From: Branchiostoma floridae
Lineage: Eukaryota > Chordata > Leptocardii > Amphioxiformes > Branchiostomatidae
NCBI RefSeq assembly: GCF_000003815.2
Contig: NC_049989.1
Coordinates: 17,244,287 to 17,308,286 of the forward strand
Direction: 5' to 3'
Length of the DNA stretch: 64,000 nucleotides
Each line of letters opens with the position of its first letter. Positions within the stretch are counted from its first letter, which is position 1. The position numbers were made by a program, and so were the translations under genes. Of the stretch, positions 4,949-64,000 are shown one piece after another. Below the pieces are notes generated by a model that was given only the letters and a program-made list of their open reading frames with translations, was not told the DNA's origin and did no database searches.

Positions 4949-5927
4949 TTAACCCTCAAACCACCGTAGCTTTTTTGTGACGTATATTACCGTATGGGGT
5001 CAAAACTGACCCCAAACCATTTTGTACAAATACAGTTTTTTGTGTGACTCTTTTTGTGATTTGCATATATGTTTAGTTTCATTAATCTATGTGGAACAGT
5101 CTGGCATGATTAGGTGAGAATATTTCTAGCTCATTATCATAATTTATGCAAAAGATCATGAGGACGACATTTTGCACAAATACTATTCGGACCGGGAAGG
5201 AGGTTTTTGATGCCAACCTTAATGCCGTATAGCGCCCGAATGTCTCATGCTAGGGCCACCAAACTTGGTAACTTTTTAGAATATGTTAAAAGCAAAAATT
5301 TTCAGTGAACAAAGTATGTTCATCATTCTTAATGTTGCCATGGCAACGAAATTCTGACAGACATATTTATTACTAGTTATTATTATTAAGTTTTCTAATT
5401 TTGTATTAAACATTTAAGTTTTAGGGTTTATTAGCAGATATCAGTTGTTTATCACATCTTATGAAATTCAACATAAATTTTATTACTCAATATTCATAGT
5501 TTATGCTAATTTAATGACGTCATCAGGCAAAATCCAAGATGGCGGCCGAGATTACCTAAATGACGTCATAATGTCGTCATATATTTTCATATTGGCACAA
5601 AAGCTGATAAAATAATTTTGACTTACATGTACGTCATTCTCTGAAAATTTCGTGATCCTACGATAAATAGTTCAGGTGTGGGGCGCAAAAGTTTGTTTAA
5701 AAAAATGCTGGGGTCAGTTTTGACCCCACTGGACCATACATAAACTTTCTAAGATAACTTAATCAATAATGAGCCAATCTAGTTAAAAACTTTTAAGAAG
5801 TTATAGGACATATATACAAACAAACTCATAGGAGGAAATTTGTTTTCGACCAGAAATGCCATAATGGCATACATCGATATACGCCTGGGGTCAGTTTTTA
5901 CCCCATACGGTGGTTTGAGGGTTTTAA
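4949..5927. mobile_element. TTAA-flanked piggyBac-like MITE, family B copy 1
   Basis: The element has TTAA at both ends and 16-bp TIRs (CCCTCAAACCACCGTA and its reverse complement). Subterminal palindromes read GGGGTCAAAACTGACCCC near 4996-5013 and GGGGTCAGTTTTGACCCC near 5710. Internal landmarks are an X-box palindrome GTTGCCATGGCAAC (5334-5347), TGACGTCA at 5515 and 5561, and AAGATGGCGG at 5536. There is no transposase frame, so it is non-autonomous. TTAA plus CCC-type TIRs is typical of piggyBac-type elements; the autonomous partner is not in the window. Confidence 0.85.
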
Positions 5928-6015
5928 AAAAATACAACTATAAACAATCAAAGTATTTACAATAGAGCACAGTGTCTAGAGATCAAATTTCTAGACAATG
6001 TTTGAGATGGCATGT

Positions 6016-6986
6016 TTAACCCTCAAACCACCGTAGCTTTTTTGTGACGTAGATTACCGTATGGGATCAAAACTGACCCCAAAACATTTTGTACAAATAC
6101 ATTTTTTTGTGTGACTCTTTTTGTGATTTGTATATATGTATAGTGTCATTAATCTATGTGGGACAGTCTGACATGATTAGGTGAGAATACTTCTAGCTCA
6201 TTATCATAATTTATGCAAAAGATCATGAGAACCACATTTTGCACCAACGCTATTCAGACCGGGAAGGAGGTTTTTGATGCCTGTACCAACTTCAATGCCA
6301 TATAGCGCCTGAATGACTTACGCTAGGGCCACCAAACTTAGTAACTTTTTAGAAAATGTTAATAGCAAACATTTTCAAGGAACAAAATATGTTCAACATT
6401 ATTCATGTTGCCATGGCAATGGAATTCTGACAGACATATTTATTACGAAATTTTCAAATTTTGTATTAAACATTTAAGTTTTAAGGTTTTATTGGCAAAT
6501 AACAGTTGTTTATCACATCTCATGAAATTCAACGTAAATTTCATAACTCAATATCCATAATTTATGCTAATTCGATGACGTCATTAGTCACAATCCAAGA
6601 TGGCGGCCGATATTACCTAGATGACGTCATAATGTCGTCATATAACATGAGAATGGCACAAAAGTTGTTACAATAATTTTGGCTTACATGTACATCATAT
6701 TCTGAAAATTTCGTGATTCTACGATAAGTAGTTTAGGTGTGGGTCGCAAAAGTTTGTTTAAAAAAATGCTGGGGTCAGTTTTGACCCCACTGGACCATGC
6801 ATAAACTTTCTAAAATAACTCAATCAGCAATTAGCGAATCTCGGTAAAAACCTATCAGAATTTATAGGACATATATACAAACAAACTCCTGGAAGGAAAT
6901 TCGTTTTCGACCAGAAATGCCATAATTACACACATTGATATAGGCCTGGGGTCAGTTTTGACCCCATACGGTGGTTTGAGGGTTAA
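6016..6986. mobile_element. TTAA-flanked piggyBac-like MITE, family B copy 2
   Basis: This is a second copy in the same orientation, 88 bp after copy 1, with the same TIRs and TTAA at each end. The two are similar along their full length, with scattered substitutions and a few indels, so they are independent old insertions or an old duplication. The X-box is slightly eroded (GTTGCCATGGCAAT at 6407). TGACGTCA at 6576 and 6622 and AAGATGGCGG at 6597 are intact. Both copies sit in what would be the intron of transposase copy 1. Confidence 0.85.
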
Positions 6987-7119
6987 AACTGTACAATGTA
7001 CACAGTGACTTAATGTCTACCAGATATAACCAGTCTTCCAGATATGTACCAGATATAACCAGTCTTCTAACACGTTTTGGACATAAGATTCTAACCATAT
7101 TATAGAAAAGTTAGAGCGC

Positions 7120-7400
7120 CAAAACCACAATTCCGAAAGTCCAATAAATCATAAGCCCGTTCTCTTCCAAGTCCGTCACCCGCGAGTAGACAAAGGTGCT
7201 TCTCACGCGCGTGGTCAGGTGGTGGTGTCCCCGTCCACAGGTGTTCCGCGTGACTAATTCTGCGATGCCACAGGTCTGTAATCTCTGGTCGTACTCAGCC
7301 CTGTCTTCCCTGGGGTGCTAGCTGGGACCGCACGCATCCTCGACTCTTTTATCAGCCTCGTCGGGACGTTGTCTCGCTCGCTGGAAACCTCCGAAATAAT
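7120..7400 (-). pseudogene. MULE-like locus copy 1, upstream exon remnant
   Basis: The stretch is homologous to 15200-15490; both carry CAGGTGGTGGTGTCCCCGTC on the plus strand. In copy 2 this is the 3' part of a hydrophilic exon ending at a GTGAGG donor (15302). In copy 1 the same donor context (CACGCGCGTGG on the plus strand) is recognisable at about 7205, but the frame is broken. Homology to copy 2 fades after about 7400. Confidence 0.4.
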
Positions 7401-7963
7401 AGTTATCTCCGTAAGAGTTATCTCGGATAGGCTGAGCTGTTTAAACTATTCAGTGTCATCTTACCCTCGCCCTTATTATTAGCTGTGTCAACCAGGATCT
7501 CCTTCATGTACATTATGATTGCTGGTCAAGTACTAGCAATACGGGGTATAAAATTTTGACCTGACAACTGAGCAATAAACATGTTGTAGAAACAGTTCAA
7601 GCATGTTCCCCTCGTTTCTGTTCTAATAGAAAGTCATCATACATTGTAGTTTTATAATAACAAACTGTCCATGTTATATCACTTACTGAATACAGTTTTT
7701 TCTAAGGCCCAAATGGCCTCATTTGTATCATCTTCTTCCCGTCCATCACAAGATACTTCCACAACATACTCTCCATCACTCAGATCGTCACATTAGTCAT
7801 TTGCATCTGACATGTGAGAATAAATCGTGTGTTGAATATGACTTAGAATAGGGAATGGGAAGACCCAAATGTATTGTTTGAAGCCGTGGAAGGACCTTTA
7901 CACCCTGAGCTCTATTCTGATGATGTGTTAGCACTGCTTGCCCTTAGATATTGCCGTTTTTCT
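7401..7963. other. No gene seen
   Basis: AT-rich DNA without a convincing open frame, TIR pair or exon signal. Confidence 0.4.
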
Positions 7964-8858: not shown

Positions 8859-9039
8859 CATCTGCGAATTTCCTATTTTGTTATGTCATGCTGAGTAAAA
8901 TACACTGCATAGCACGCTCGATGCTGTTGGTAAGACCCGGCTCACCCTGTCAACGTAAATGAATTTGATTTATTGAAATTGAAAGCAGTGAAAATATGTT
9001 ACATACAGAAGTGTAATAGATAAATTAATCTGTCACTCC

Positions 9040-12357: not shown

Positions 12358-13287
12358 TTAACAACAAATGGGGGGTGGGCTAAAAGTGCCCGCGCCGACT
12401 TTGACCTCCTATAGCTTCCAAACGGCTTGTGCTAGAACAACCAAACTTGTTAAGTTTTCCTAAAATATTGTTCGCAACAATTAAAAAAAAAATGGGTAAG
12501 TTTATGATTTTTCGTGTTGCCATGGCAACGGGTTTCTGAAATGCAAATTTTACAAAAATCACTAATTTTGGTTTAAACTATGGGATTTTAAGATTTTCTT
12601 GCTAAACTAAACTTCTTTTCATATATATTCAATATCCAACACATCTAAGTTAAACATTTATAATTAAATATTCATAAATTATGCTAATGAGATGGCGTAA
12701 TTTGTCAAAATCCAAGATGGCCGACAATATCATGATTTAAAGTATAACAAGCTTATTTTCACTCAGATTTCATCACTACGTGGTCTTTTCTTACAGAAAA
12801 CATTCATGTGAACGTTTTTAATCCATTTCCATGGGGTTTTAGCGTTATATGTTGAAAAAAATGTATCTTGAAAAATTTAAGGTTCATAATCCAAGATGGC
12901 GGATAGCTAAACTACAGATGACGTCATTCTATGACGTCATTTTGACGTCGTTGCGTCGGCTTTTGACAACAGAAGTCTTATAACACTTAAATATTAATAA
13001 TAAACCTTTATTGGTAACTTTTTGAGTGAGATATTTAAGTATTATGGGAATTTCCCGTTTTAGCCAAAAATATCAATGTATGACGTCATAATTACGTCAT
13101 ATTACGTCATAATATTATAAAAATTCAGGAATTATAAAACTCGATGAGCACAACCACCCCCCCCCCCCTTGCAAATTTGGTGATCGTACAGTAAGCCGTT
13201 TTGAAAATACGAAGGGGCGGTCGAATGAGCTTCCCCCCCTCCCCCAGGCCAGGGAAGGCCCAAAAAGCCCAGTGTGGATAGGGTTAA
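12358..13287. mobile_element. TTAA-flanked element, family A copy 1
   Basis: The right end reads AGTGTGGATAGGGTTAA, the reverse complement of TTAACCCTATCCACACT. The left end begins with TTAA but its TIR is eroded (ACAACAAATGG then GGGTGGGCTAAAAGTGCC). Internal landmarks are the perfect X-box GTTGCCATGGCAAC at 12516, AAGATGG at 12714, TGACGTCA at 12919, 12932 and 13081, and a poly-C tract near 13150. It aligns with the elements at 45979, 49617 and 62335. No coding capacity is seen. Confidence 0.75.
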
Positions 13288-15011: not shown

Positions 15012-15301
15012 CTACATCTGCATTTTGGTCTTTGTCCCGTTTAAAAATAGTTTTTCGTTTAATTCAAGCGTATCTCTTATTCTTAACATTCAAGGATAAA
15101 CAATTCAGATCAGCCATACCCACCGGCATGGTCACCAAATGTAACAAGTTATCTAGCACATTTTATTTCCTTTGGACGTAAGATCCTTACCATAGTACAG
15201 AAAAGTTTGAGCGTCAAAACCATAATTCTGAAAGTCCAATAAATCATAAGCTAGATCATTTCCAAGTTCATTATCCGTGAGTAGAGAGAAGTGCTCCTCA
15301 C

Positions 15302-17820: not shown

Positions 17821-17827
17821 CGCATTA

Positions 17828-29304: not shown

Positions 29305-29305
29305 C

Positions 29306-30942: not shown

Positions 30943-31018
30943 GTGGGACCGCGTGGTGCAGTGGCGGCATTTGCGGCTCGAGACCGAGAGGTTGCGGGTT
31001 CGAATCCAGCTGCTGTGT
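30943..31018 (+). promoter_or_regulatory. tRNA-like head with Pol III A and B boxes
   Basis: The A-box-like sequence is TGGTGCAGTGG (30954-30964) and the B-box is GGTTCGAATCC (about 30997-31007). This is the usual internal promoter of tRNA genes and tRNA-derived SINEs. The cloverleaf is imperfect, so it is not a functional tRNA. Confidence 0.75.
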
Positions 31019-31448
31019 CACCGATCTTGTGCCCTTGGGAAAGGCACTTTACACGACTTTCCTCACTTAACTCAGGTGTAAATGAGTATCTAGTGGCTTG
31101 GTGGGGCTATGTGGCCGAGACAGGCCTTAGGGGCATGTTCGGGCATGAGCGGCACCCGCCATGGCACACGAGTCGGGGGTAGGAGGAACCCCCTACATCC
31201 TTGGTTGGAAGTCCTCCTAGGAGACGGATACTCCGAACAACAAAGCTGCATCTGCTGGAGCCGCCTCACACGTTGCATACAGTTGCCCCCGTGAGACTTA
31301 GTGCTCCAGTAGACGAGAGGGTGGAGAAGGGATTGCACACCCCTCCTTCACCATAAAATGTCATGTGCAGGTCAGGCAAACAGGCAAATAGCCTGTCTGC
31401 CTCCTCATCTGTCCAATCGACAGGAGAAACCAAAAAAAAAAAAAAAAA
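30943..31448 (+). mobile_element. tRNA-derived SINE, complete, with target-site duplication
   Basis: The insertion is flanked by a perfect 12-bp direct repeat ATATTTGTTTGA (30931-30942 and 31449-31460). The 5' head is tRNA-like. The body has a conserved-looking core, GTGCCCTTGGGAAAGGCACT, about 80 bases downstream, reminiscent of central domains of metazoan SINE superfamilies. The 3' end is a run of about 19 A. The element is 506 bp, probably transcribed by RNA polymerase III and mobilised in trans by a LINE. A perfect target duplication and intact A tail suggest a fairly recent insertion. Confidence 0.85.
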
Positions 31449-35323: not shown

Positions 35324-36244
35324 CTAGTCAAGAGCGTGTCCCCGTATGCCGTATCTGGACATCTTCTGGAGAAGGATGGAATGGTCCAGAGTGTCAAATG
35401 CCTTTGACAGGTCAATGAACACTGCTCCAGTCAATTCTCCGTCGTTCATTGCATTGAACCACCTGTCAGTGAGTAAGTGTACAGCCATTTGTGTTGAGTG
35501 ACCGGGTCTGAAACCGGATTGAACTTGAGAGAGGACGTTGTTGGTTGTCAGGTACTGATAGAGCTGTGTGTGTACAGCTCTTTCCAGGGTTTTGGAGACG
35601 GCAGGAAGGATGCTGATGGGTCTGTAGTTGTTGGGGGCGTCTCTGTCACCAGCCTTGTGTATGGGTGACAGCCTAGCTTTCTTCCAATCCTCTGGGAATT
35701 CACCTGTCTGTATAGATGCATTTATGATGGTTGTCAGGGATGGTGCTATTTCCTGAGCGGCTGACTTTAAGAGCCTGTTGTTGAGCTGGTCAAGTGCAAC
35801 GGCTTTGTCAGTCTTTAGAGCTGAGAGTTGTTGGGTGACAAAGTCCACTGTTACAGGTCTGAGGGTGAAGCGGCACTGGTAGTTCCTGACAAACTGAAGG
35901 GGGTTGAAATGTGACCATCCTTTGTTGCTGTTTTGGGCTAGAATTTCGGGAACTGTTCCAAAGTAGTTGTTAAGTACATGAGCTTTGTCCGATAGTGCTG
36001 TTTTGGTGTTTCCCTCTCTATCCTTCATGCTAGTGACGTCACCTGACTTTGACTTTCCCAACAGAAACTTGAAGCAGCTCCACATGTCAGATACAGAACC
36101 ATTGTTGATTTTGTCGGTGTAGTGGTTGCATTTGCTGGAGAGAATTGTGCGCTTGGTGTGATTGCGTAGTTGCTTGTACGTTTCCCAGTCAGTTGATTTT
36201 TGCGTTCTTTCAGCTGTGTACCTTGCTTGGTCTCTGAGGGACAT
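35324..36244 (-). pseudogene. LINE reverse transcriptase, longest intact frame
   Basis: A 306-codon open frame contains the finger and early palm motifs of a non-LTR reverse transcriptase, from TERTQKSTDWETYKQLRNHT to FIDLSKAFDTLDHSILLQKM. The catalytic YADD follows downstream at about 35160 in another frame (MYADDTVIYYSHKNS), so a frameshift near 35320-35230 separates it. Part of the LINE described in the 34110-37450 entry. Confidence 0.85.
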
Positions 36245-36418
36245 GGGCTTGCGTACATCTTCAGATAGCCATGGCGGGCAATCAGTTCCTTTTACACGGA
36301 ATTTCTTGATTGGGGCATGTTTGTTACAAACTGATTCAAACAGTGACTTTCATGCACTCCACATGTCCTGAACAGAGTCGAAGACAGAAATTGTGCTCCA
36401 ATGTACCTTTTCGAGGTC

Positions 36419-37201
36419 TTATTTGAACTGTTCTTCATTGAATCTCTTGAAGATTCTAGCCCATTTAGCTGGGGGTTCGGGCTGTTTTATCCCCCGATAT
36501 GTGTAGATCAGGTGGTGGTAACTCAAACCACATTTGAACACGCCACTCTTTGAGTACTTGCTAGGGCTGGATGTAAGGATGACATCTAGCAGAGTAGAGC
36601 TGTTTTCAGTTACCCGTGTTGGTTCCGTTATGAGATTGGTGAGGTTGTGCAGGTCACAAAGAAATGTCAAACCTTCGGAAGGACCCTTGTCCTGGAGGAG
36701 GTTACAGTTCAAGTCTCCCATTATTGCTACTTCTACGTTTGTGTCAGATGCCTTTTCCAGGCTCTCTCTGAAGGTCGTGAAGAATTAACTGTCGTTTGGT
36801 GGTCGGTAGGTACAGCACAGAAGCAGGTGTTTTGACTTGGGTGATGTCAGCTCGATCCACAGAGCTTCCAGTCCCTCAACATGTAGATCGTTTCGTTCTT
36901 TGAAAGCTATGAAATGTTTGATATACATGGCTATTCCACCACCGTGTCTCGAGCCTCTCTCCTTTCGTAGGAGTGTGTATCCGGGAAGCTGAATGGTGTT
37001 GTCGGGAAAGTGTTCACTTAGGTGGGTTTCAGTCAAGCCAATGATGTCCATTTTACTTTCCGCAGCTAGGATCTGGAGATCAGTGTGTTTCGCTGGGAGG
37101 CTACGAATGTTCTGGTGTGTCAAGAAGAGTCCTTTCTTATGCTCTTTCTTTGGTGGGCTAGGATAACTCAGTGGACCAGGGTTCATAGCAGAATTGCACA
37201 T
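36419..37201 (-). pseudogene. LINE APE-type endonuclease domain (broken)
   Basis: Two frame-matched segments, 37201-36785 and 36721-36419, carry the apurinic-like endonuclease motifs HQNIRSLPAKH, GLTETHLSEHF, YRPPN and MGDLNCNLL. A stop separates them after YRPPNDS. This domain nicks target DNA in active elements; here it is inactive. Confidence 0.8.
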
Positions 37202-37450
37202 AAACAGAATTGCATCTTACTACATTTCCTTCCTGGGATGAAAATACTATGCGCTAGCTTTCTACGGCCATTATACAGCTGATATAGTCCATACTCATAG
37301 CTTGATATAACATTGTGTTCAAGTTCATTAGTATGATTTATCACAGGTGAGTCCTTAGCTGTTACAGATTTACAGAGTAGCAACATCAACACAGCAAAGA
37401 TTGCTAATCTAACACAGGTGAAGTCTGGCTGTACATTACAGCTTGGCAAC

Positions 37451-44686: not shown

Positions 44687-46110
44687 CTGGAGGTGTGGTT
44701 AATATTTCATGATATAAATGCGTATACTTAAATTAAGAGTGTAAAAATAGGACTTCAAAACGATAGACATGAAATCATATGCCTATTTTTAATTGCATAC
44801 ACAATGTATATTCATGTATTTGGGGATATGTATTTTTTATACTCAAACTTTAGTATTTTATTCTATTTCATGCATATTTAGGTATATCGGCGCAAAATAC
44901 TGCCGGATATGTACACGCACGATTCATACCTATTTTGTAGATTATTATGTAGAATTTCACCAGGTAATTAGAGATTTCTTACTACAAACTGTTTTTAGTA
45001 GATAAAGGGTATTTCCTTACTTTCCGATTTTTGCCTGCCAGGATGATGATGAGTCCTGCCAGACGGAAGACCAGTAGACGACGTCTTCATCAACCGCGAT
45101 TCCAAAAACCCACTTCCCGTCTTCATACAGCACTTGTCGGATATCCTTGCCCAGCAGGTCTGAACTGTAGACGCCGTAACTGTGATTACGGTAGTACAGC
45201 CGATCCTCTAAATGGATGGAAAAATATGGTAATCAATACTACGTAGTTAGAGTTTTACATAAGAGTAAGGCGCAAACATGCACATGCGTAATGCCTGACA
45301 TGTAATGGTATTGCAAAGATCAATGAAGCAGGGATATAGTCACAATACCGTTATTCAGGTAATATTAATGTTTCCTTACTAAAAAAAGTTTCCAAACTTG
45401 TTCTACTTACTTAACTAATCATTTGCTTAAAAAACATGATCATATTGACAACACGTCCTTAACTAGAGCCTGTTTCATCACCTTTGAAGTCTATTGTAAT
45501 GAAGCCGGGATTACGCAGACCCGTGATGATGGTGGTTTGGCCACTGCCGTCCATCGCAGCTCGATCAATCTTGCCTTTAGAACTGTCCACCCAGTACACG
45601 AGTCTGGGGCAAACAGACATTTTAAATCTCCGCGAAATTTGCTGATTCATTGTGCATCTTCTCGTTGATTAAGTCGAAATTAAAATGATATAATTGCACT
45701 ACAATTAAATAATATACGGTAAATGCAGAAATGTTCGCGGTGTTTTTAAGTTAGCGGTTTTTGTGGTTGCCACTTCACCGCGAAATTAAAACCACCGCGA
45801 ACATTTTCCATGGTAGTAAGAGACTACAGTGCATCGTGTTACCGCGAACTTAAAGCCACCGCTAACAGTCATTTACAGTCCATGTACAGTATACAGCGCA
45901 AGAGAAAGAAGGAAGCTCATATGATATGGTATGACATTGTCTGATTTACTGAGTAATCAACTCTTCATGATGTTTATCTTAACCCTATCCAGGCTGGGCT
46001 TTTTTTGCATTCCCTGGCCGAGTGGAGGTAGGTAGGGCTCATTCAGCCCCTTTCGTAATTTCAAAACGGTGTACTGTACGATTACCAAATTTGCAGGGGG
46101 TCAAGTATTG

Positions 46111-46162
<52 letters not shown>

Positions 46163-49100
46163 TTATGACGTCATCAATTTATTTTTTGGCTAAAACGGGG
46201 AATTTCCATAATACCTAAATATTTCACACAAAAAGTTATCTATAAAGTTTTTTTAATCAATATTTAAGTGTAATTAGACTTGTTTTTTTAAGCCAAAGCA
46301 ACGCCGTCAAAAATGACGTCATAAAATGACGTCATCTGTCGTTTAGCTATCCGCCATATTGGCTTAACCTTAAATGTCTTGAAATGCAACTTTCTCAACA
46401 TATAACGCTGAAAACGGATTGAAACGTTTATAAAATATTTTCTGTAAGAAAATACCAAGTCGTGAAGAAATCCCAGTGAAAATGAGCCTGTTATACTTTT
46501 CATTATGATGATTTTGAACATTCACGTCATTATTCATGAATATCTAATAATAAATGTCACACTACGATATCTTACATATTAAAGATAAATGAAAGAAGTA
46601 TAGTTTAGCAAAGAAACTTAAAATTCTAATGTTTAAACCAAAATTAGTGCTTTTTGTACAATATGCCTTTTAGAAACCCGTTGCCAACTTAGGCTATTTC
46701 TTGTAAATTGTTGGCAACAATATTTTAGGAAAAGTCACCAGGTTTGGATGTTTTGGCACAAGCCGTTTGACGTCAAAATTTGCGCTGGCACGTATAGCCC
46801 CCGTCCCACGTCCCACACCCCAGTCTGGATAGGGTTTTAACGCGACTACCATCTGGTATTAAATGGCCAAAGTTCACGAATGAGGTGTTATATACAATTT
46901 TCGATTGAATATTCAAATTGTGGTAACCCTATGAAAGCACGCATCATTAGAAAGAGAATTGAAGATGGAAAAGGAGTTATGACCACACAAGATCAAAAAG
47001 CGACAAAACAGGTCAATCCTATATATGACTAGAGAAAACGTCCTGTTGAGGGCCATCACAGCCCGGCAAAGGAGTGTCTTACAGAAAACTCCCAACGAAC
47101 TTTTAGACTCGGTCTGTTGCCACCGCAGCCGGGGTGATCGAAGCGGAAAGTATTCACCATGTGAACGTTAATACATGAAGCTTTGTCACTATAACCACTG
47201 TTGTGTTTGTTTATGACGAAATGCATTTTACTCACTCATTCCTGGGGTCCAGGACCACATCCCCGGTATCTATGATGTCTGGTGACGTCAGAAGTGTCCT
47301 AGCGGACGATCCGTCCTTCTTTGCTACAGATATAGCCCCTGTGCCAGAGACAGACCAGAAGATATTCCCCCCAGCGTGGTCCAATGCCAGGCCCCAGGCA
47401 GCTGCAGAAAAGAGTTTAAGGACGTTCATGTGTAATTGATCACTGTACGAACAACAGGAAATGCTTACAATTGCACACTTATTTTGGAATCTTTGAAATG
47501 TTGTTCTACTGGTGAAAATCTTGATATTTGGGGTAGACCACAACAGTATTGCAGTATGCTTTATTTATCACTCATATATACGTATTTCTATTATCTAATG
47601 TATATTAATTGTAAAAAGTTAGTAAAGAGAGGCCTTCGTATAAGCAACAGCTTTTGGCTTCCTTTGCACTGTTATATCCCTTTATATTTCATTGTCATGT
47701 ATTTACTTTTTTTTTTTTTTACTCTAAGTGTGAAACAAATAAGCAATATATACAATAAACAGTGTACACAGATTCCCCAAATATGTTGGGGTTTTGTCGA
47801 TAGACTGACGCATTTGAGCTCAGAAATGCGTAACTAGGACCACCATGCAGTCACTCCATTTCTGTTAACTTTTATTGCATATTAATCTCTGAACAGATGT
47901 GATGATGATATGATATTTGCGGTCTTTCAAATTGATTGCAGATGATGTTAAAGCAGATGTTAGGATCTGGCACATTCTCTGTGTCCTAAGCCCGTTTTTG
48001 CAACATTTATCTTTCTTTTCTAGAACTGTATTCTGTTAAAAATTCACCTTTTCCTACATAAACAAAAGAACAAAGAGCAGGATCCTTGATATACAAAGAT
48101 CATTTGGGCACAGCTTACTCAGAAGTTTATTGATACGTCTTTGTAATTTAACCTAGCCTAAAATCAGATATATTATTTTGAAATGTTACTTCTGACTTTG
48201 AATTTAAGGATTACAATGACAATTTATACCTTATTTTCACCGGTATCTATGCTAATGGTTATTTAAAACTTACTATAAATTCCGGTATCTATGATGGTCT
48301 CCATGCCACTCCCATCACGACGAGCCCGTTTGATGTTGGCGTTTTTCCAATCTGACCAGTACACGTAGTCGGTGAGCGGATCGTAGTCCAGGGCGTGGGG
48401 CCGTCCAATATGTACACATACTAGTGGCAGTGTGACCTTTGATCCGGAAGTGATGTTAAATTGAATGATGATTTCTTGATCTGCGACCAAGAGGAATGGC
48501 TCAATATTCTCACGGGAGTACAGATATCCTAATGGGTGGAGGAAATCAGAGTAAAATAACGAAATATTTTTAATCATCATCTATATTTTTTCTGACATAT
48601 AACATCACGAAACGTCCTAATTTGCATATATCACTGAGAATGCGGTATAATACCGCAGTGGTAAATGATAGGCATTTCCTGATATCATTTATATACGTTC
48701 TTAGACATGATATAATAACATTTATTGTGTAAAACAATCTTAATAAACAGATAGATCAAGGGCTATAACACGAATACTAAAACATACCAACAGCACCAAA
48801 CGAACATTAACACATACATACCTCAAGCCGTCAAAAAGGCAAGATTTTTATTGCCACATTTTTGTACTAAGTATGTTGACCAACACGCCATCTCAAATAG
48901 CACATACAACAAATGAAACCCAACTCACCTGACGTCTCACTCGTCTCGTCAACACTCTGCTCCATGGTTGGGCCGGTTCGGATTAGCTCCTTGGCCAGGT
49001 CGCGTTTCAAGGCGTCAACATTGGTGGTTAGTTGGCGTAGGTCGTCTTGGTCATGCTTTAAGGCGTCAACAGTGGTGGTCAGTTGAGGCATGTCATCTTG

Positions 49101-52100
49101 GTCGCGCTTCAACGTGTCAACAATGGTGGACAGTCGGCGCATGTCGTCATCATCGTGATGCTTCAAGGCATCAACAGTGGTGAACAGTTGGTTCATGAAG
49201 TCTTGGTCGGGCTTCATGGCGTCAACAATGGTGGACATGTTGTCTTGGTAGTTCTTAAAGGCGCCAAGAGTGGTGGTCAGTTCAGATATCTCCTACGAAC
49301 AAATATAGGTATATATGTAGGTCAGAATACCAAACATTAAAAAAAAGTAAGATAGCAGAAGGTTCTGACCTGATGGACTCAATAAACACAAAAGAGACAG
49401 TGTCGGAAAAATTGCTTTCCAACAGGTTTTTGTGATACAATAGCGCTTACCTCATTGTTGATGAACGCCAGAAGGGAAAGTCCCACACAGACCAGGATGA
49501 GCAACACGGCAATACCCGTGGCCACGTAGGCAAGCTTGGAGCGGATGAAACTACAGAGAGCACGGCAGCCGCTTGGTCCCCCAGAATACGTGCGGTCTGT
49601 TAGAAAACAAGAGGATTTAACCCTATCCAGACTGGACTTTTTGGCATTCCCTGGCTTGGGTAGGGGTGGGGGGTCACCCCCCTCCTTCGTATTTTCAAAA
49701 CGGCTTACTGTACGATCACCAAATTTGCAGGGGATGATTTGCTCGTCGAGTTTTATGACTCCTGAAATCGTCGTCATTATAACGTAATATGACGTAATTT
49801 ATTTATTTATTTATTTATTGGTTTGGCTGCACCGAACACACAGCCAGGGCTGCCCAACTAGCCTATGGCTATTACAAAGGGCTAGCCCTGCTGACAAACA
49901 CATAAACAATACAAATTAAAAGAAAGAACATTTGTATGTACATGGTGTAGGATAACTTACATATCATCTAAAATGGAGTATATAACATCATATCATCGAC
50001 AACAATATTTGCAATGAGAGGTCAGGGTCTGTATATACACGTGTGTGACTAATTTACCATGCGTATGGTTGCCTAGACATTCCCATAGTTTTCTTTTGAA
50101 AGAAGCAGTGGAGGTGGCTGTGCGAGTAGCAGTAGGGAGAGTGTTCCAGAGTGCTGTTGCTCTGTAGATGAATGTTTTCTGGCCTCTGGTGGACTTAGTG
50201 AGTTCAGATGTCAGGTGGTCGCTGTTCCTGAGGGAGTAACGTGACTCAGTAGCAGACGCACGGGTTCTGGGTATCAAGGTTTGAAGGTGTGGAGGGCAGT
50301 GACCGTTGAGGAGCTTGTACAGGGTGACAGCGGTGTGGAATTTTCGTCGGAACTGCAGTGATGGAAGGGATAGCTGGGTGTACAGAGATTGGTATGACGG
50401 GTACGGGAGTCCATGTTGTCCGCTGATCAGTCTGGCAGTTTGGTATTGAATTGATTCCAGTTTTGTTTCGTCGCGCTTGGTGAGTCCAGTCCAAACGACG
50501 TCGGCGTACTCCAGACCAGGTCTGGTGATGGTTTTGTACAGTCTGAGCAGGATATCCTTTGGTACCTTCTTTCTCAGTGCACACAGTAGGCCAGCAGATC
50601 TTCTTGACTTAGTGGAGGTTGTTTCAATGTGTTTAGACCAGGAAAGTGTGTTTGTTAGGGTGACACCAAGATGCTTGTAGCTAGTTATGACGTCATTAAT
50701 TTTTTTCGGCTAAAATCGGAATGTCCCATAATACCTGAATATTAAAAAAAGTGACCAATTAAGGTTTCTTATCAATATCTGAGTGTTATAAGTCGTCTGT
50801 TGTCAAAATCCGACACAACGACATCAAAATGACGTCATAAAATGACGTCATCGTAGTTTAGCTATCCGCCGTCTTGGATTTAGCCTGGAATCCAGCCGTG
50901 TTGTGCTTTGGTCGCTCTGCTTCCTTGCGAACACGTCTGGCATTCGTTAGCATTGGAAAGATCGGTCCTTACGTCACTAATGCGGGAAAGATAGAAGTAG
51001 TGTTCCGTTCGATTACGAACTGTAAACATGATTCTGTGTGTTCGATTTCCACCTTGGGGGTGCTTTGCGAAGGGGGCTTGGAGCCAACAGCCAATCAGAA
51101 ATCGCGCACATAAAGTGTGCGAATATTCAAATGCCAATCGTTCCAATGCTAACGAATGCCAGACGTACTCACGGTGGTCCGGTTGCTAGGCCAAAATCAC
51201 CATTGCTATGTGAATAGGCCGCACCCACTATTGTCACGGCGGGATGCCACCTCTGACTTGCCGGCAGAACAAGGATCGGCACAAATATTTTTTTCAAGTT
51301 AACATGCAATCTGACAATCGTATTGAAAATACAAAGTATAAAACTATCAAAGAAATGTGTTGGTTCTGGAACTATGTAAAAATCAAGAGTTGACATGTTA
51401 ATGCTACGTCCCTCGGGAACAAAATGCGTCGCATGCACAGAGGTCACTCTCGGCCGTTGAACTTTGCACTGACAAAACTCAAATCCTTCATTTACGTGTA
51501 AAACAGTACCTTACTACATTATCTAACCTTCTGTCCTGCGAAAATACGGCTACGTTCTCAAATGTTGGATGTCTAGGAGATTTAACTTTTTTTACTAATT
51601 TTGAGGTACGTTTTCTCCCATATCCCTTTTCGGTGAAAACGTACGAGCTTCCGACCAAATTAAAAATGGCGGCGACGTTCTGAGCTTTTCGGCGTTGTCA
51701 TTTTCATCAAATTTTCTTTTGTTAAACTCCAGATATAGCCCGAAATATGAAATATAGACTTTATTCAACGTTTCCTCGTGGTAAATTTTGAATGTTTTCG
51801 AGTTATAATGAGGATGGCGGCTAAGAAAACACAGCCTTATGAAAACAAATTCAAATGAGGTGCCGATCGGGCCATTGTTATTCGTGGAGGCCCCAAGCGT
51901 GATAATTGCCCGGGATTTTCAAGTTGCGAAAAAGAATCGACAATTTGTGTATTTCAAAGCTCTTGACATCGCAGATAACTAACTCTACCTAGTACCTAAA
52001 GATTTCAAAACATTGAAGAAATATCGTAGCCAACTTGCCGTCAAAAGGGTTGAAAATTCAGTAATGATACGGCTTTCTGTTCGTGTTCGACGGGTGAGCT

Positions 52101-55100
52101 AAAAAATTCTTGCATTGTCAAGCCAACTCAAGGAGTGAGGTTTAAAAAACGGTGAAACAGGTTTTTATCTACATGACGAGTTTACAGAAAATCTGAAAGC
52201 CACAAGAGTCTAGACCAGGCTATTTCTGTTGTGTTACAGTACTTGATTAGCGATTAAACGTTTAGGAATAAATTGAAACAAATATGGCGTGGGTTGAGTG
52301 GTGCATTTGTAAACAAAGGAACTGAATTCCGGTCGGAAGCATTTTTTTTTATAAACCAAGACGCGTTGTCTCTCATTTAACCGCATACAGGAGGCATACT
52401 TCACGTAATGTAATGTGTGTGCCACTATACAAAATCTTTATTTTCTGTGTTGAAATTGACCGATCTATTGAAATGCTTGGTATGAAATTCTATGTCTAAC
52501 AACCAGAGGGCCCGCCGGCCGCTGGCCTCCGTGTTGTCACTACGCATTTTGAACTTCCTAACCTGCCCCAGATTTCATGAAGTAATGCTGTACTGGTATT
52601 TAAAAAGCTGTAAATGTCCATTATACGAGAGAAGAAGAAATCACAGCGGAAAACCAGGTAATGCTGTGATTTTGTGGTTCAATGCTTGTTCCTTGTTACC
52701 GGCCAAACACGCCGGTGCCCCTCCATGGCGGCTTCAAAACAAAGGCATACGAGCAATTGCGTTATGATCTGAGGCGTAATGTAGGAGGGAATGTTATGTT
52801 CGAAATTCAGTATGTTTCAAAAATTCAGTGTTTCAAAATGCTATTCACACCGAAAGCAGGGTTTTAGGCTCATTGTATGAACTTGTTTTTCTTCTTCAAC
52901 CAGGTTGTGTAGACAATGCAGATTTCGCTGGACAGTGATAATCATGGGGAAACAAAAACAATAGGCCGGGGCGGGGAAGACTACGCATTTGAAAGGAAAA
53001 CTCCCCGCGGAAAAACACAGGGGGTCAGAAGAAACTCAAACATTTTCAGATCAGTCCTTCAAATGTGAGAACCAATCACTGACTGTTTCCAAGGGCGATA
53101 GTAGTGATTGACATCAGCTTCTCATTAATATTAATTACCTAGAAGTGGTGAAAAACAGAACCGATTTGGACCATCGTGACTGGCAGGAGCAGAGCGACCA
53201 ACGCACAGTACGGCTGGATTCCAGGCTATCTTGGATTATCAACCTTACATGTCTTAAGATACATTTTTTTAAACATATAACGCTAAAAATCCATGAAAAC
53301 GGATTGCAAACGTTCACATGAATGTTTTATTTAAGAAAATACAAAGTAGTGATGAAATCCGAGTGAAAATAAGCTGGTTATACTTTTCATCATGATGTGG
53401 TCGGCCATCTTGAATTTTTACCAATTACGTCATCTCATTAGCACAATTTAGGACTATTTAATTATTAATGTTCAACTAATATGTGTTAGATATTAAAGAA
53501 AAGAAGTTAATTTTAGCAAGAAAATCTTAAAATTCTATTGTTTAACCCTCAAGCACCCGATTGGGGTCTATTTGGACCCCAGACGTACACTTTGAAGTAC
53601 CAGTTGAACATTTTTGATTTGAAGAAAAATGCATTCCGTGACTTTGTCAGTCAATATCTGCTATACATTCTCCTACGTTTTTACGAAGATTGGTACATTA
53701 CTGTGGAAATTATAAAGAAAGTCTGTGTTCAGTCCGTCTTGGGTCCAAACGGACCCCAGCAAAAATGTGCAGTTTTTAAAACAATCTTTTGAACAAACTC
53801 CTGAACGACTTATCTTATGACCACCGAATTTTCAGAGATTGATAAACATGTAAAACTAAATCCTCACAAAAACTTTTGTGTCATCACAATGTAATATGTC
53901 GACATCATGACGTCATTTAGCTTATAAGGGTGGCCATCTTTGATTTTGTCCAATGACGTCATGGAATTTGCATCAATTTTAAATTCTAAATCAAGAAAAT
54001 TAGATTGATTCAAAGAATTTAATTGTTGTCAGAAAACAAGTGTAGTTTACTAAGAAAACCTTGTTTAAATCGAAATTGGCAAATTTGGGCAAAAATATGC
54101 CTGTCATAATTCCGTTGCCATGGCAACCCAAAAAATGATACTTACTTTAGTGACTTTAATTTTTGCCAGCAATATTTTGTGATAAATTACCAAGTTTCGT
54201 AGCTTTAGCTCTAGCCGTTCATGAGTTATACGCCATAAAAGTTGCCGAGGGCCTCAAAATTCTCCACCCTGGTCAATATAGGTTTAGTGCAAAACTGGTC
54301 CTTCTGATCTTTTGCATAAACTATGATAATAAGCTGGAATAAGTAACACATTAACATCTCAAAATGTTCCTCTATCATTGACGAAGCAATGTATGTACAA
54401 TGATCACCGATGAGAATTTTAATCAAGATTTTTTAAACAAAACATGTCGGGGTCCGTTTGGACCCTACTCGGTCATTTTAGTCGCACAAAAAGGTCGGGT
54501 GCTTCCGGATTAAACCCTAATTAGTGATTTTTGACAAATTTGCCTTTCAGAAATCTGTTGCCATGGCAACGCGGAAAAATATAAACTTGCGAAATTGAAA
54601 AAAAAAATTGACAACAATATTTTAGGAAATGTCGCCAAGTTTGGCCTAACACAACCGTTTGGGAGCTATACGACGTCAAAGTTGGCGCAGGCACTTTTAG
54701 CCCCCCCCCCCCCCACTCCCCCTTAAAGAATTTTAAGGACTGACAAAGACCGGAGTTCGTGCTGGAAATGACGTATACAGCTTAAGTTCAATCCGCAACA
54801 CGAAATCGAAAATAACACACAGTACAACAAATCACATTATAATCGTTTATAGGGGATTGTTTAGTTAGTGACTGAACCCACATAAAGATTGATAAGAGCA
54901 ACATCGCGGACGAGACAGGTTAATTAATTTAGCATTAGTAAGTCTATTTATTTACTAGTATTTTATCTATTTTTGTTTTCTTTAACCCTCAAACCACCGT
55001 ATGGGGTCAAAACTGACCTCAGGCGTTTATTAATATGTGTCATTATGACATTTCTGGTCGATAACAAATTTCCTCCTATGAGTTTGTTTGTATATATGTC

Positions 55101-58100
55101 TTATAACTTGTCATACGTTTTTACCGAGATTGGCTCATTGTTGATTAAGTTACTCTAGAAAGTCTATGCATGGTCCTGTGGAGTCAAAACTGACTCCAGC
55201 AATTTTCTAAACAAACTTTTGAGGCCCACGCCCAAACTACTTATCGTATGATCAATATTCTTTGTAAACATTGTTCTTGAAAGGAAGCAGTGTGCCCAAA
55301 GAAAAAAATGCATGATGTGTTCTTTGATGTTTTTAGAGCGTTTGTTGTAGTTTAAAAATTAAAGATGACGTCGATCGATTGCTTAACAAATCGGATTTTT
55401 CTGCATTGCAGTCCAGTTAGTGTCATCACGAGATGTCACGACGTCACATTTGTCGAAGTTTTTTTTTGTCGTAGAGTTATCAAGAATCTATGACAGAACC
55501 GACAAGCGACAAGAATCTAAGACGGCCCTTTCGTAGGAAGACAGCTAAAGCTTGTGTGACACCTTCGTTATCGTACGGAATTAGTTTGTTATCGTACGGC
55601 AATCGTACGAAAAATCTGACACAGGATGATTTACCTGTTCCGGAGGCGTACATTGGGTTGGGTATACTCGCAGCAGCGTCGGCACGTGCCTGCCAATCAG
55701 TCTGCTGCATGGTTGTGGTGCCTGGGGGGAAATTAAGATGGCCTCGACCGTATGAATCTGGAACACAAGCGCATCTGTGGCAAATCGACACCCTTCTCCT
55801 GTTATTGTTTATCGCACCACCAGAGAGCCATTCTTCAAACTCGAGTTGTTTTTGTCGCATGGCAGTCGAATGATGTCACGACGTCACATCCGTAGAAATT
55901 TGTCTAGCGATTTTGAAGATTTTGAAGAGTTTAAAAGTAGTGTATGACAGAGCCGACCACCGACAAGAATCTAAGACGGTCCTTTCATAACAGAACAGCT
56001 CAAGCTTGTACGACGCCTTCGCGACTCAGGAACGTAATCAGTTTGTTATAGTACGGCAATCGTACGAGGAACCTGACACAGGATTACTTACCTGCTCCGG
56101 AAGCGTACATGGGATTGGGAAAACACGCAGTGGCGTCGGCACGTGCCTGCCAATCAGTCTGCTGCATCGGCGTGGTGCCTGGAGGACAGTTACCAAATTT
56201 AAATGGTGTGAAAGGTATGAATTAGGGAGAAAAGTCACTTTAAGATACAACATGATATGACAAATATAACGTTATATCCATTAACTATGGTAGTATTATG
56301 TTATTGTACATCGCACCTTTAGAGGGCCACTCTTCATACTCGAGGGGTTTTTTTTGTCGCATTGCTATAAGCCTTCTTACACTAGTTGTCACGCACGCGC
56401 GGGTGATAGGAACACTGGGTAATATGTCAAAGTTGAAGGCCCCCAGAAAATCAACATTCCGTCATATTGCAGGCGCCATTACGTTTCTTACTTTGTTCTA
56501 CAAATCCAAACAATGGTAGAGACGTCAGCTGTTGACGTCTGAGGGCCTTAAACATTGACATATTACCCAGAGTTCCTCTCACCCACGCGTGCGTGGTAAC
56601 TAGTGCGAGAAGGCTTATCCGAAACCTATCAGGCTCATCTATATAAGCCACACATCCCATATAGTGCAAGGTATTAATATGCTAATAAAATCGCATGTTC
56701 AAGCGCATCGACGTTGACATGGAGACACCCCCTTTGACGGAAATGACGGTTATCCTCCTCTGGTAGAACATACAGGAAGTACACAAACAAGTACACGCAC
56801 TGAGTGGATACACGCGCGGGTTCGCCAGAAAAACAAACCTACACGGCTCTCCTTACAATTGAAGTAAATGTGGATATTGTCTTACCACCAGCTGCTTCCC
56901 GAGAACAGTGGGGAACACCCTGTGCGTGCCTGGGCTTGCGAGTGCCGCGAATGTTCCTGTCATCCCTTCCTGGAACCGAAGTGCCAGCATCTTCCTCCTG
57001 ATATCTGACGGCATATGGCTCCATGCTAGCTGGTTGGTGGTCTTTATCAGCGTCAACATCTTTATCCTGATATCTGACGGCATATGGCTCCATGCAAGCT
57101 GGTTGATGGTCTTTATCATCATCAGCATCTTCCTCCTGATATCTGACGGCATATGGCTCCGTGCTAGCTGGTTGGTGGTCTTTATCATCATCAGCATCTT
57201 CCTCCTGATATCTGACGGCATATGGCTCCATGCTAGCTGGTTGGTGGTCTTTATCATCATCAGCATCTTCCTCCTGATATCTGACGGCATATGGTTCCAT
57301 GCAAGCTGGTTGATGGTCTTTATCATCATCAGCATCTTCCTCCTGATATCTGGCGGCATGTGGCTCCATGCTAGCTGGTCGCAAGTCAGTATCAGGATCT
57401 GTGCCCTGGCCCTTCAGGTCATGCCCGTACACCGGGTTGGAAGCGTCACGTGCAAGCACGGGGTCAGAGGGACTTAGGTTGTACAGGGGGTTCATGTGCA
57501 CGGAGGCTTCGTTTGGAGGATGTTGAGACTCGTGCAAGGTACCACCGCCCCCGAAAAGGGCTGGAGCCTCAACACTGTTCTCGGGTCTATCACATCCTGC
57601 TAAGTGAACTTGGAAATCTTCTTTGCTGGTTGAAGCCACTATTTTTTTCTGAATGGGCGCCTTGGTCTTGGTATCTTCCGAACGAGTCTTCATCGCAAGA
57701 GCATGGCACATGTATGTGTCGCTGTTTGGTTGAATAGTGTCATTTCCCTGTCCGCTCTGGGTTGCTCCTTTACCTTTATAAGGCATGGTCAGTTCGTGTG
57801 TAACAGCGTATGGGCTGATGTCTGTAATGTATGTAATCCAACAAGTATTTATCTATTAAGCTTCACAGAAAAAGTTCTGTAAGGTGTTGGCAACAGGATT
57901 TTTGCGTCCTTTACAGGATCCACACCTCCAGCAACAGTTAAAAAACTATAAACTATAGAGAATGGGCAAATAAAATCTAATTACTTAACATAAAGATATT
58001 ATAACAGAATAACAGCAAATACAAAATAATACCCAAACGAAACAATAGTAAAAAGGATCAATTAAACTTAAAAACAAATGAAAATGATGTAATTAAAGGT

Positions 58101-61330: not shown

Positions 61331-61990
61331 TGAAAATAAACAAAACGTTTTGACAAGGAAAATGTTTTCGAAATAAGATTAAATTAGCAATTTTACATAC
61401 ATTGAACGATGTCGTTTGGATTTAGATAGCTGTTTTGTTTCGATGTTACTAAAAAAGACGATCATTTTCTGTTTTCAGGAAGGCCTTTAATTTGACCAAA
61501 CTCTTGATAAGATAGGCCGCATGAATCATCGGAAATTCTCGTTTTTTATATTTTTCGTCATCTATGAGGAAAATAAAACTTTCTGTTTTTGGGATTTTTT
61601 AATTTCTAATTTTAAGCAAAGTTACAGTCGAAAATATGCGTAAAAATGGCATTTTTCGCACTTAATTACCAATAATTCAAAATCGAAGGCATTTTTTAAA
61701 AATCCCCAAAACAGAAATCTCGGGAAAATCATGGCGGTCATTTTGAGCCGTCAACGAGTTAATTTGGACTCTTCTTGGTCGCGATCTTAAACGAAGTTTG
61801 CACGCATGTCATGCCGCACGGATAGCGGGAGGGTGTAATTGATACCGGTGTAAACAACACTTACAATATTCAAGGTCACCAACACAAACGTCAATAGCTT
61901 CGTTAAATATCACAGGTCCCAAACAAAGTGATAGCATGGATGTACTGTCCAGAAAATTGTTAATATTAGTGAAAAACTATCTTTTTTGGC
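61331..61990. other. No gene seen
   Basis: AT-rich DNA with no recognisable exon or TIR. Confidence 0.35.
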
Positions 61991-61994
61991 TGAT

Positions 61995-62334
61995 TCAAGG
62001 TAGTTTGGGGAAAAAGGCCAGAGAGCAGTGTTTACCGGCAACGACCGCAGATGACCCCAAATAGAACACGGGTTCGGTTCGCATTACGTCAGATGGAATA
62101 TCGTGGAACAAGGTTCCAATTCGGATAGACATGGGAGGTTTTGAGCCCGTATTTGACCACCGTGAACAATGTATTAATCCCGTCTTGTAGTCTGTTGTGT
62201 AATCATTAAGAATATACTTGGAGGCACGTCTTTGAACTTTTTCGACTAAGGAAATGAGGTTGTGCGTATAGGGAGACCAGATGACTGAGCAGTACTCGAA
62301 TTTGCTTCTGACAAGGGTGAGATACAACATTCTT
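61995..62334 (-). pseudogene. LINE reverse-transcriptase C-terminal fragment
   Basis: The minus strand reads MLYLTLVRSKFEYCSVIWSP, YTHNLISLVEKVQRRASKYI and LNDYTTDYKTG. The pattern LVRSxxEYCSxxWSP...LxxxEKVQRRA is standard for LINE reverse-transcriptase C-termini. The frame degrades after about 62150. It is interrupted at its 5' side by the TTAA element at 62335. Confidence 0.75.
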
Positions 62335-64000
62335 TTAACCCTATTCAGACCGAGGGGGGTTGAGTCATGCGCCAACTTTGATGTCCTACAACGCTAGAAC
62401 GGCTCACGCTAGAGCCACCAAATTCGGTCAGATTTCCTAAAATATTGTTGGCAACAATTTAACAATGTTTGACAAATTTTCCATTTTTTTGTGTTGTCAT
62501 GGCAGCCGTTTGTTGACAGGAAGTTTTGCCAAAAATCACTATTTTTGGTACTAACAATGTATTTTTCACATTTATTTGCTATATTACTGCTATTTTGTTA
62601 TATAAATAAAATATTATATTATCTAGCATATCTTTTATAATTATATATGTATAAATTATGCTAATTTGATGACGTCATCAGCCCAAAACCCAAGATGGCG
62701 GATCGTATGGCCTGATCAAGAATAACAAGCTAATTATCCCTTAAAATTTGTAACTACCTGGTATTTTTTCATCAAAAACCATCTAAATGAATGTATTTTG
62801 TCTATTTCCATTGCCCTGTGTGATTATTTGTTGCAAAAAAAGTATTTTTTTAAGTTAACCCTCATCCGACCGTTGCATTTTTACGACGAATCTGACCGTA
62901 TGGGGTCATTTTTGACCCCATTTTGTTTTGCTCATAGACATATTTCTGCTGGCTTATTTTGTCATTTCTATGTATTTACTGTTTCACTAATCTATGAAAA
63001 ATATTTTGACAAGTTTTGGTGTCAGTAGTTATTACTCATTATCATAATTTATGCAGAAAGTTAGGAGAAACCACATTTGCTCTGAAAATCTACCATTCTC
63101 AACTTACTTAAACAACTTTCTGTCTTATCAATTTCTAAACAATAATTTTGATGCTGCAATAATACTGATAGCATAATAATGTTATTTAACAAGAAAAAAT
63201 ACAATATTTGTAAAAAGTAACTAATTTATTACTTAATTATGCACCATATTCCGCCATCTAAACACATACGTACAATAACTCTTGTCTATTTTCCCGCAAA
63301 GATCTTTCTTTTAGGTTCCTTCTGCACATTCTGCCCATATATTTTTCTTAATTAATTGGAAAAATATTAGCTTCATTAGCATAGGTAATTAGTGCATATT
63401 ATCATAATTTATGCAGAATGTCGAAAAACTGTGTTTTACAATAAAATACTAATTTTTTTTCAAAATATTCGGTGTTTATTCATCTGAACAACTATACCTC
63501 TTTACTGTAATAGCAATGATGAGGAATGCCTGTTATTTTATTGAAATGTCTTGATATTTATGTAATTAATGATTCATAATTGGCTGGGGTCATTTTTGAC
63601 CCCACCGAACAAGACACAAACTTTCAAGTATAGCTTAAAAAATAATGGGCAAAACTTTGTGAAAAATTGATAGATGTTGTAAGACATGTATGCAAACAAA
63701 TTCATGGAAGGAATTTTTTCTCTGATGAAAAATGTTGCAATGGCAGATAAAAATATACGCCTGGGGTCAAAAATGACCCCGTACGGTCGGATGAGGGTTA
63801 AAATTCAAGGTGGTGAATATAATATGGCGGAGCCCAACCGGTAACTTAGATGTGCATGACGTCATTTTATGACGTCATTTTGACGTTATTGATGTTGCTT
63901 TTTGCAACACAAGTCGTAACAAATATTATCCTTCTATCACCTGCACTTGATCTCTTTATAAAGAAAAGAGCCGAATTCGTTACTCAAGCAACTGGATATG
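62335..64000. mobile_element. TTAA-flanked element, family A copy 4, running off the window
   Basis: It starts TTAACCCTATTCAGACCGAGG, inserted into the LINE fragment. It continues past the nested family D element and reaches the window edge. TGACGTCA is at 62670, 63857 and 63870, and AAGATGGCGG at 62692. The X-box is degraded (GTTGTCATGGCAGC). Confidence 0.75.
62855..63801. mobile_element. TTAA-flanked element, family D, nested in family A copy 4
   Basis: TTAA is at both ends, with perfect 15-bp TIRs CCCTCATCCGACCGT. Subterminal palindromes GGGGTCATTTTTGACCCC occur near 62905 and 63584, and a variant near 63763. It lacks clear X-box, CRE and YY1 motifs. No coding frame. Confidence 0.85.

Follow-up and report, generated by a model that had tools for sequence, protein, structure and literature searches.

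The window analysed here, a stretch of 64,000 nucleotides of the Branchiostoma floridae genome (G000:C11:17244287-17308286; 513,431,437 bases on 431 contigs), carries four families of short TTAA-flanked elements, A, B, C and D. Three of them, A, B and C, share a homologous core in which an RFX X-box (GTTGCCATGGCAAC), a ATGCTAAT block, cyclic AMP response elements (CREs; TGACGTCA) and a YY1-like site (CAAGATGGC) lie in a common order. We put it at slightly better than an even chance that these families form a nested lineage of miniature inverted-repeat transposable elements (MITEs) whose motif block has been under selection at the level of the source elements, with docking of host factors as the most likely mechanism.

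A homologous core in elements with different ends

The elements measure about 0.86–0.98 kb, are flanked by TTAA and have inverted ends starting with CCC. Copy A2 (6016..6986, forward strand; 91% to the A consensus) has TTAA at both ends, and its termini, TTTAACCCTCAAACCACCGTA and TACGGTGGTTTGAGGGTTAAA, bring terminal inverted repeats CCC(T) beside the TTAA; TTAA likewise borders both ends of copy A1 (4949..5927, forward strand; left end TTAACCCTCAAACCACCGTA; 95% to the A consensus) and of the D element in the window. The ends of B are also of the CCC type and are decayed in several copies, and all nine D copies that were read start with TTAACCCTCATCC and finish with GGGTTAA. Where a C element lies inside a B element, TTAA stands at both 53542 and 54510 compared with a single TTTAAACC in the B consensus, indicating a target-site duplication. 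No stop-to-stop reading frame of at least 110 amino acids was found inside the window copies A1, A2, B1, B2, C or D, and no match to known RNA families was obtained at Rfam gathering scores. From their sequence, A, B, C and D are classed as non-autonomous, MITE-type TTAA transposons with piggyBac-like ends. TTAA target sites are used by other superfamilies too.

Copies were sampled from the genome using window positions 4949-5214 as query for family A (875 first-look candidates), 46560-46860 for B (1334), 53513-53800 for C (672) and 62855-63080 for D (226 bases; 424); first-look candidates do not equal confirmed copies, and 40 were scored per family. The A, C and D queries contain no full motif, and the B query covers the decayed X-box position of copy B1. 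Consensuses were built from 16 sequences for A, 28 for B and 29 for C. Two short loci, L073 and L064, were left out of the A and C consensus set, L073 being offered again for later tests. The B set omits loci whose best piece was below 350 bp or which gave no match; its 28 sequences include both window copies and two loci chosen by their X-box (L003 and L004), and the tests were repeated without these.

A first-pass annotation of the window had proposed that the families differ in their terminal inverted repeats but share internal order, which holds in A, B and C. All three consensuses keep a perfect X-box, TGACGTCA, CAAGATGGC and ATGCTAAT; the distance from the X-box to the ATGCTAAT - CRE - CCAAGATGGC block is 156–173 bp, and further CREs are present. 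In the A and C consensuses ATGCTAAT, CRE, CAAGATGGC and a second CRE follow one another at equal offsets (12, 20 and 26 bp). In B, a half CRE separates ATGCTAAT from CAAGATGGC, and these two sites keep the 32-bp distance seen in A and C; downstream of this first block come a second CAAGATGGCGG with two full CREs and, further on, a third CRE. In copy A1 the motifs are the X-box at 5334..5347 (14 of 14 columns identical in the three consensuses), TTATGCTAAT at 5501..5510 (a 10-base run identical in all three), a CRE at 5515..5522 (7 of 8 columns identical), the YY1-like block CAAAATCCAAGATGGCGG at 5528..5545, whose first 16 bases form the longest three-way identical run, and a second TGACGTCA at 5561..5568, all on the forward strand.

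The names of the motifs follow the usual consensuses. That of the RFX X-box is GTTGCC-N0-3-GGCAAC, which GTTGCCATGGCAAC fits, and those of CRE and YY1 are TGACGTCA and AANATGGCGG, both of which are matched in the window and in the family consensuses; the TTATGCTAAT block is presumably POU/octamer-like. The assignment to RFX, CREB/ATF and YY1 made in the first-pass annotation agrees with these consensuses in sequence, except that the YY1-like site of C and the first one of B read AAGATGGCCG, one base off, and that the first CRE of B is a half site. The ATGCTAAT block is an additional conserved block absent from that annotation.

The sharing extends beyond the motifs. The cores of A, B and C are homologous over several hundred bases, aligning over 402–428 columns at 65–75% identity between consensuses, and it is because of this homology that families with different ends share the block. 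The core alignment rules out, for A, B and C, short motifs set on unrelated interiors. The three-way alignment of the consensuses has 391 ungapped columns, and in 220 of them all three agree. Unbroken identity extends furthest in CAAAATCCAAGATGGC (16 bases, YY1-like), GTTGCCATGGCAAC (14 bases, exactly the palindrome) and TTATGCTAAT (10 bases), followed by AAACTTGGT (9 bases, unlabelled) and ATGACGT (7 bases). The three longest sum to 40 bases against a shuffle mean of 23.9 (P 0.0005), a result independent of the choice of motifs. Motif columns are identical at 31 of 35 positions compared with 189 of 356 elsewhere; among 391 circular placements only the true position attains this level. Outside the window, three diverged B-like loci (L003, L004 and L095) were compared with a B consensus from which they had been excluded: the motifs other than the X-box agree at 118 of 120 positions, and the remaining sequence at 1536 of 2108 (a fourth, truncated locus counted); X-box loci lying near B or C in sequence (L090, L101, L094, L104, L105 and L108) were omitted from this comparison, and L106 yielded no motif columns. 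Neither the run test nor the off-window test is circular.

The position of the B left end bears on how the block came to lie in three families. Most B-type copies that were read start with TTAACCCTATCCAGACTGGGG or a near variant, and L003, L095, L106 and the B-like element E of the window start with TTAACCCTATTCAGACCG. By alignment, A and C each contain a B-type left terminus (32 and 38 aligned bases, respectively), neither score being reached in any of 500 shuffles, and it sits just where the likeness to the left arm of D ends; it is absent from D itself (419 of 500 shuffles as good), whose arms are homologous to those of A (71–75%). A 32-base stretch of the right part of B is also present in A (0 of 500 shuffles) and, more weakly, in C (3 of 500). 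No match to the right end of B itself was obtained in either consensus. In copy A1 the B-type sequence occupies approximately 5184..5672 on the forward strand and includes the inner left terminus CTATTCGGACCGGG, the cassette core, further B homology and the 32-base stretch. Since the B left terminus stands beside a D-like outer arm in both A and C, the block probably arrived there by nested insertion. Probably a B-type element entered an element with D-like arms, a direction that we infer, and the composite spread as A and C. Independent retention of the motifs across families, as first supposed, thus gives way to common descent, probably by nesting.

Two nested arrangements lie in the window itself. 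On the reverse strand, a C element (53542..54513; 88% to the C consensus) with an X-box at 54114, TGACGTCA at 53908 and 53954 and GCCATCTT at 53933 splits a B host element into 53225..53545 (90% to B 201-531) and 54510..54710 (84% to B 1-207; X-box at 54557). On the forward strand, a D element (62855..63801; 96% to the D consensus), with A-like arms, is inserted in the B-like element E. The first part of E (62335..62854; left end TTAACCCTATTCAGACC; 71% to the B consensus) carries TTATGCTAAT at 62656, TGACGTCA at 62670 and AAGATGGCGG at 62692. The second part (63798..64000) runs off the window and has a B match at 63856-63918 (81% to B 549-611) and TGACGTCA at 63857 and 63870.

Shared and private variants and the proposed level of selection

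Whether the regulatory sites of transposons serve the host or the element has long been asked. Multi-copy families can separate the two, as shared variants report on the source elements and private ones on the inserted copies. Variants were called shared when present in at least two copies and private when present in a single copy; expectations were base-matched, window copies were left out unless stated, homopolymers of at least 5 and gappy columns were omitted, and B1 was omitted from B. Across the families, shared variants were depleted two- to fourfold in motif columns, with 3 against 11.8 expected in C (P 0.002), 10 against 19.5 in B with the two X-box-chosen loci out (P 0.008) and 6 against 15.4 in 36 core copies of A (P 0.002). 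Private mutations in the motifs were not depleted in B (48 against 50.0 expected) or C (24 against 22.2). The depletion in B and C holds without CpG columns (window copies or X-box-chosen loci included), and that in the large A set holds with or without them (window copies included). Such a pattern in B and C fits selection during transposition better than host use, A being excepted as to private mutations. It points mainly to selection on the element, and suggests that selection acts mainly on source elements whereas inserted copies mostly drift. In the sampled copies of B and C, the motif columns were also better conserved than the rest, and a check put forward in the first-pass annotation, whether the sites are no better conserved than their neighbours in a genome-wide consensus, did not refute its proposal when run on these samples.

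Several observations weigh against this reading. The choice of motifs came from a reader to whom their sharing was already visible, which makes the comparison of 31 of 35 with 189 of 356 columns partly circular, and the off-window test depends on three loci that had been selected for carrying a perfect X-box. For each family, the copies analysed were those with the best scores. In A, plain conservation was 0.977 in motifs and 0.972 in the rest, with 387 of 978 shifts as high, and CpGs inside the A motifs showed lower conservation (0.906) than the remaining CpGs (0.949). The shared expectation in B falls from 28.2 to 19.5 (10 observed) once the two X-box-chosen loci are removed. Smaller A sets showed no depletion of shared variants (5 against 5.3 with 16 sequences; 5 against 5.0 with 15). 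Private mutations in A motifs were low, 11 against 21.1 expected (P 0.005), and 2 against 9.0 in the set of 16, which is not predicted by source-level selection alone.

To the same side belong three points from outside the variant counts. The autonomous partner was not found: the genome holds 25 matches to PF13843 (transposase), and the flanks of the 2 examined show no cassette and no A–D ends. Only 13 of the first 28 X-boxes listed on contig C1 lie in A, B or C elements, so the X-box is not confined to these families. Finally, family D was amplified all the same: all 40 scored matches, the window's own included, reach at least 97% over the query, and none of the nine D copies read has an X-box, TGACGTCA or TGACGT.

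The low private mutation in A motifs, together with the better conservation of motif columns in B and C copies, is what host exaptation would lead one to expect, that is, inserted copies acting as enhancers and kept by purifying selection in the host. Nevertheless, private mutations in the motifs of B and C are as frequent as elsewhere, and exaptation as the general explanation seems very unlikely to us; a host-level contribution in A is conceivable. More improbable still is a history without selection, in which a shared origin of recent date, gene conversion among families or unequal local mutation rates made the motifs look conserved. The families do share the core by descent, but the 14-base identical run ends exactly at the edges of the palindrome, and the result in B and C persists with CpG columns dropped and bases matched. 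Besides, the motifs of B and C show no shortage of private mutations, which indicates that the local mutation rate is not low there.

Mobility without the block and its possible mode of action

The idea that TTAA elements in general share the cassette stands for A, B and C and fails for D, the fourth TTAA family, which lacks X-box and CRE. As D was amplified without them, the cassette is not needed for mobility, and a strict requirement for it is ruled out. Possible weak motif remnants are present in D: the exact ATGCTAAT is kept in 7 of 9 copies and in the consensus (also in 11 of 200 shuffles), TAGATGGCGG is one base from the YY1-like site and GTTGCTATGGCAGA three bases from the X-box (each with 3 of 200 shuffles as good), and one of the nine copies has AAGATGGC. 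The block may help but is not required for mobility. Selection during transposition, as first proposed, accordingly keeps its footing in the depletion of shared variants in A, B and C, and is qualified by the low private mutation in A and by the mobility of D. A further sequence, CATAATTTATGC, recurs in A, C and D within their outer arms (62855-63801 examined in the window) and occurs within the ATGCTAAT block in the A core; it may be another shared site.

Host-factor docking, the most likely mechanism by analogy, would take the following course. A B-type element carrying the X-box, the ATGCTAAT, CRE and CCAAGATGGC block and further CREs would have landed in an element with D-like arms, where the inserted copy shed its right end and some of its interior; the composite would then have multiplied as A and C, its outer arms serving as ends. 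Source elements with intact motifs would leave more copies, as the contrast of shared and private variants suggests. RFX, CREB/ATF/CREM, YY1-like and POU-type factors, named here after the motif consensuses, may occupy the block in germ cells or in the early embryo and hold the chromatin of the element open, so that a transposase supplied in trans would reach it more often. For mouse spermiogenesis, RFX2 and CREM are reported to be key regulators (PMC11864758), and in human SVA elements that are active, YY1 and OCT4 occupy neighbouring sites (PMC9239442). By comparison with these systems, an X-box/CRE/YY1-like/POU-like block would suit an element that needs openness in the germ line.

Source-level selection would be equally expected if the motifs were binding sites of the transposase or the transposition machinery that merely resemble host factor sites, and the X-box and CRE are perfect palindromes. 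Nevertheless, there are four different motifs, two of them non-palindromic, each resembling the consensus of a known host site; they are internal rather than at the ends, D moves without X-box and CRE, and an X-box with a YY1-like neighbour recurs in a further family, F, unmatched by the A–D consensuses. This alternative appears unlikely.

A wider and more tentative proposal, which we consider possible but short of probable, extends host-factor docking: the module would be a selfish fitness trait passed between families by nesting and kept via source copies, the binding of germline factors raising mobilisation in trans, with F, a second family with TTAA ends, as an independent gain. In family F (276 first-look candidates, with ends ...CAGACAGAGCCTCTTAA; loci L092, L102, L103, L107 and L133-L135) the X-box is close to a YY1-like AAAATGGCGG, and the A–D consensuses find no match in it. 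L092 is a 74–75% relative with an altered YY1-like site, and L102 and L103 look like parts of one element longer than 3 kb, of which they form the two inverted ends and which has a tandem repeat inside.

As a rule, MITEs descend from autonomous elements. The block might be a promoter relic, namely the promoter of the transposase gene of an unseen autonomous parent, conserved since the parent would need it to transcribe that gene and inherited by the MITEs as deletion derivatives; this fits their usual descent and explains why the block is kept from family to family even if it does nothing in the MITEs themselves. It is opposed by the depletion of shared variants within the MITE families A, B and C themselves and by the two PF13843 flanks examined out of 25, neither of which shows the cassette or A–D ends, and it seems rather unlikely. 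The flank upstream of one piggyBac-type frame on contig C12 (L111) has TTAACCCTT and paired subterminal palindromes, alike in layout but different in sequence. Over 21 bases this flank also resembles the subterminal GCTCATTATCATAATTTATGC of A at 90% (E 0.004), possibly a weak link to the autonomous group.

Five MITEs were reportedly described in Branchiostoma floridae by Osborne et al. in 2006 (cited in PMC5803294). A MITE named LanceletTn-2 is mentioned in a further report (PMC5802833). Like piggyBac-type MITEs (TTAA target site, TTAACCC ends), A–D are short and non-coding, with inverted ends, TTAA duplication and many copies. They differ in having ends unlike the two piggyBac-domain flanks examined, and in carrying several conserved motifs as one block that shows signs of constraint at the source level; moreover, A and C were apparently built by nesting. 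The 5' untranslated region of mammalian L1, an autonomous, transcribed element, has a YY1 site kept for its own expression. Like the CAAGATGGC site here, it is kept by a mobile element, whereas A1, A2, B1, B2, C and D of the window have no 110-amino-acid reading frame. Transposon-borne regulatory sites are well known, also in SVA, which is a retrotransposon. SVA elements provide an example, with a composite YY1-OCT4 motif that is bound and active (PMC9239442); YY1-type and POU-type sites are adjacent in a multi-copy element in both cases, whereas the SVA motif is enriched in de-repressed, co-opted copies and the block described here belongs to a DNA transposon, adds an X-box and CREs and is known from sequence. 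A literature search over titles and the starts of abstracts, with subscription journals mostly outside its coverage, returned nothing on this site combination in MITEs. To our knowledge, it is unusual for non-coding DNA transposons to hand on such a block by nesting and to retain it through selection on source copies, as proposed here. Nesting would be a concrete route by which a regulatory module may pass between transposon families, and the hundreds of natural copies lend themselves to tests of binding and mobility.

Occurrence of the motifs and other features of the window

All motif coordinates of the first-pass annotation were located in the sequence. The window has four X-boxes GTTGCCATGGCAAC (5334, 12516, 54114 and 54557; Markov expectation 0.0003), 23 TGACGTCA (0.8–2.1 expected) and four AAGATGGCGG (5536, 6597, 12893 and 62692; 0.03–0.04 expected); for the last motif three positions had been listed correctly and 12893 had been missed. 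The X-box of copy A2 is damaged at 6407, where it reads GTTGCCATGGCAAT. All four X-boxes, all four AAGATGGCGG and 19 of the 23 TGACGTCA lie inside A/B/C-type TTAA-flanked elements, the remaining TGACGTCA being at 16268, 36034, 47283 and 61148. Genome-wide, the X-box occurs 2478 times compared with 1 for the reversed pattern, and ATGACGTCAT 10244 times compared with 1391, an imperfect control because reversed ATGACGTCAT holds no CpG. AAGATGGCGG occurs 3291+3171 times on the two strands (6462) compared with 192+184 (376) for its reverse, and the composite ATGACGTNATNNGNCAAAATCCAAGATGGC (CRE-CAAAATCCAAGATGGC) 271+298 times (569) compared with 0+0. Chance composition as the source of the motifs is ruled out by the Markov expectations and the reversed-pattern controls.

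Outside the window, X-boxes were sampled as 24 loci on C1, which hold 25 of the first 28 listed there, the other 3 lying in loci already sampled. An A, B or C match was found in 10 of the 24 loci, and the 13 X-boxes in such elements comprise 10 of the 25 in the loci read and the 3 sampled before (L010, L015 and L067). Another 10 of the 24 loci (L001, L002, L089, L091, L093 and L096-L100) are outside A/B/C and not clearly F. Among these, L091, L093 and L096 have 22–35 bases around the X-box in common with F loci, and L093 also shares about 100 bases elsewhere. Perfect X-boxes outside A, B, C and F may be genuine host X-boxes or belong to other repeats. Among the composite CRE-YY1 sites listed, these elements are strongly clustered by region: 69 of the 84 listed on C1 (35.3 Mb) lie beyond 29.5 Mb (29.5–34.2 Mb), and 8 of those listed on C2 lie within its first 0.97 Mb.

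The window holds further copies and fragments of the families. Copy B2 (12370..13287, forward strand; 94% to the B consensus) has a decayed left terminus and the right end GTGTGGATAGGGTTAA. Its X-box is at 12516..12529, and its second module, CAAGATGGCGG followed by two TGACGTCA (12919 and 12932), spans 12892..12939 and is present in the 28-sequence consensus. On the reverse strand lie copy B1 (45979..46840; TTAACCCTATCCAGGC ... GTCTGGATAGGGTTTTAA; 76% to the B consensus), two B fragments, at 49617..49799 (83% to B 721-899) and, with three TGACGTCA, at 50682..50880 (86% to the B consensus), and an A-type right arm at 54982..55254 (89% to A 709-979).

Apart from these elements, a fragmented non-LTR (long terminal repeat) retrotransposon lies at 34346-37216 on the reverse strand, with a reverse transcriptase match (PF00078, E 5.6e-16) and an endonuclease match slightly under the cut-off. 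A 69-bp tandem repeat (5.7 copies, 93% matches) at 56985-57379 falls in a 337-amino-acid minus-strand frame, and a 51-bp tandem repeat at 48990-49292 lies inside a minus-strand open frame. One tRNA-Ser (cga) gene is predicted at 30947-31019.

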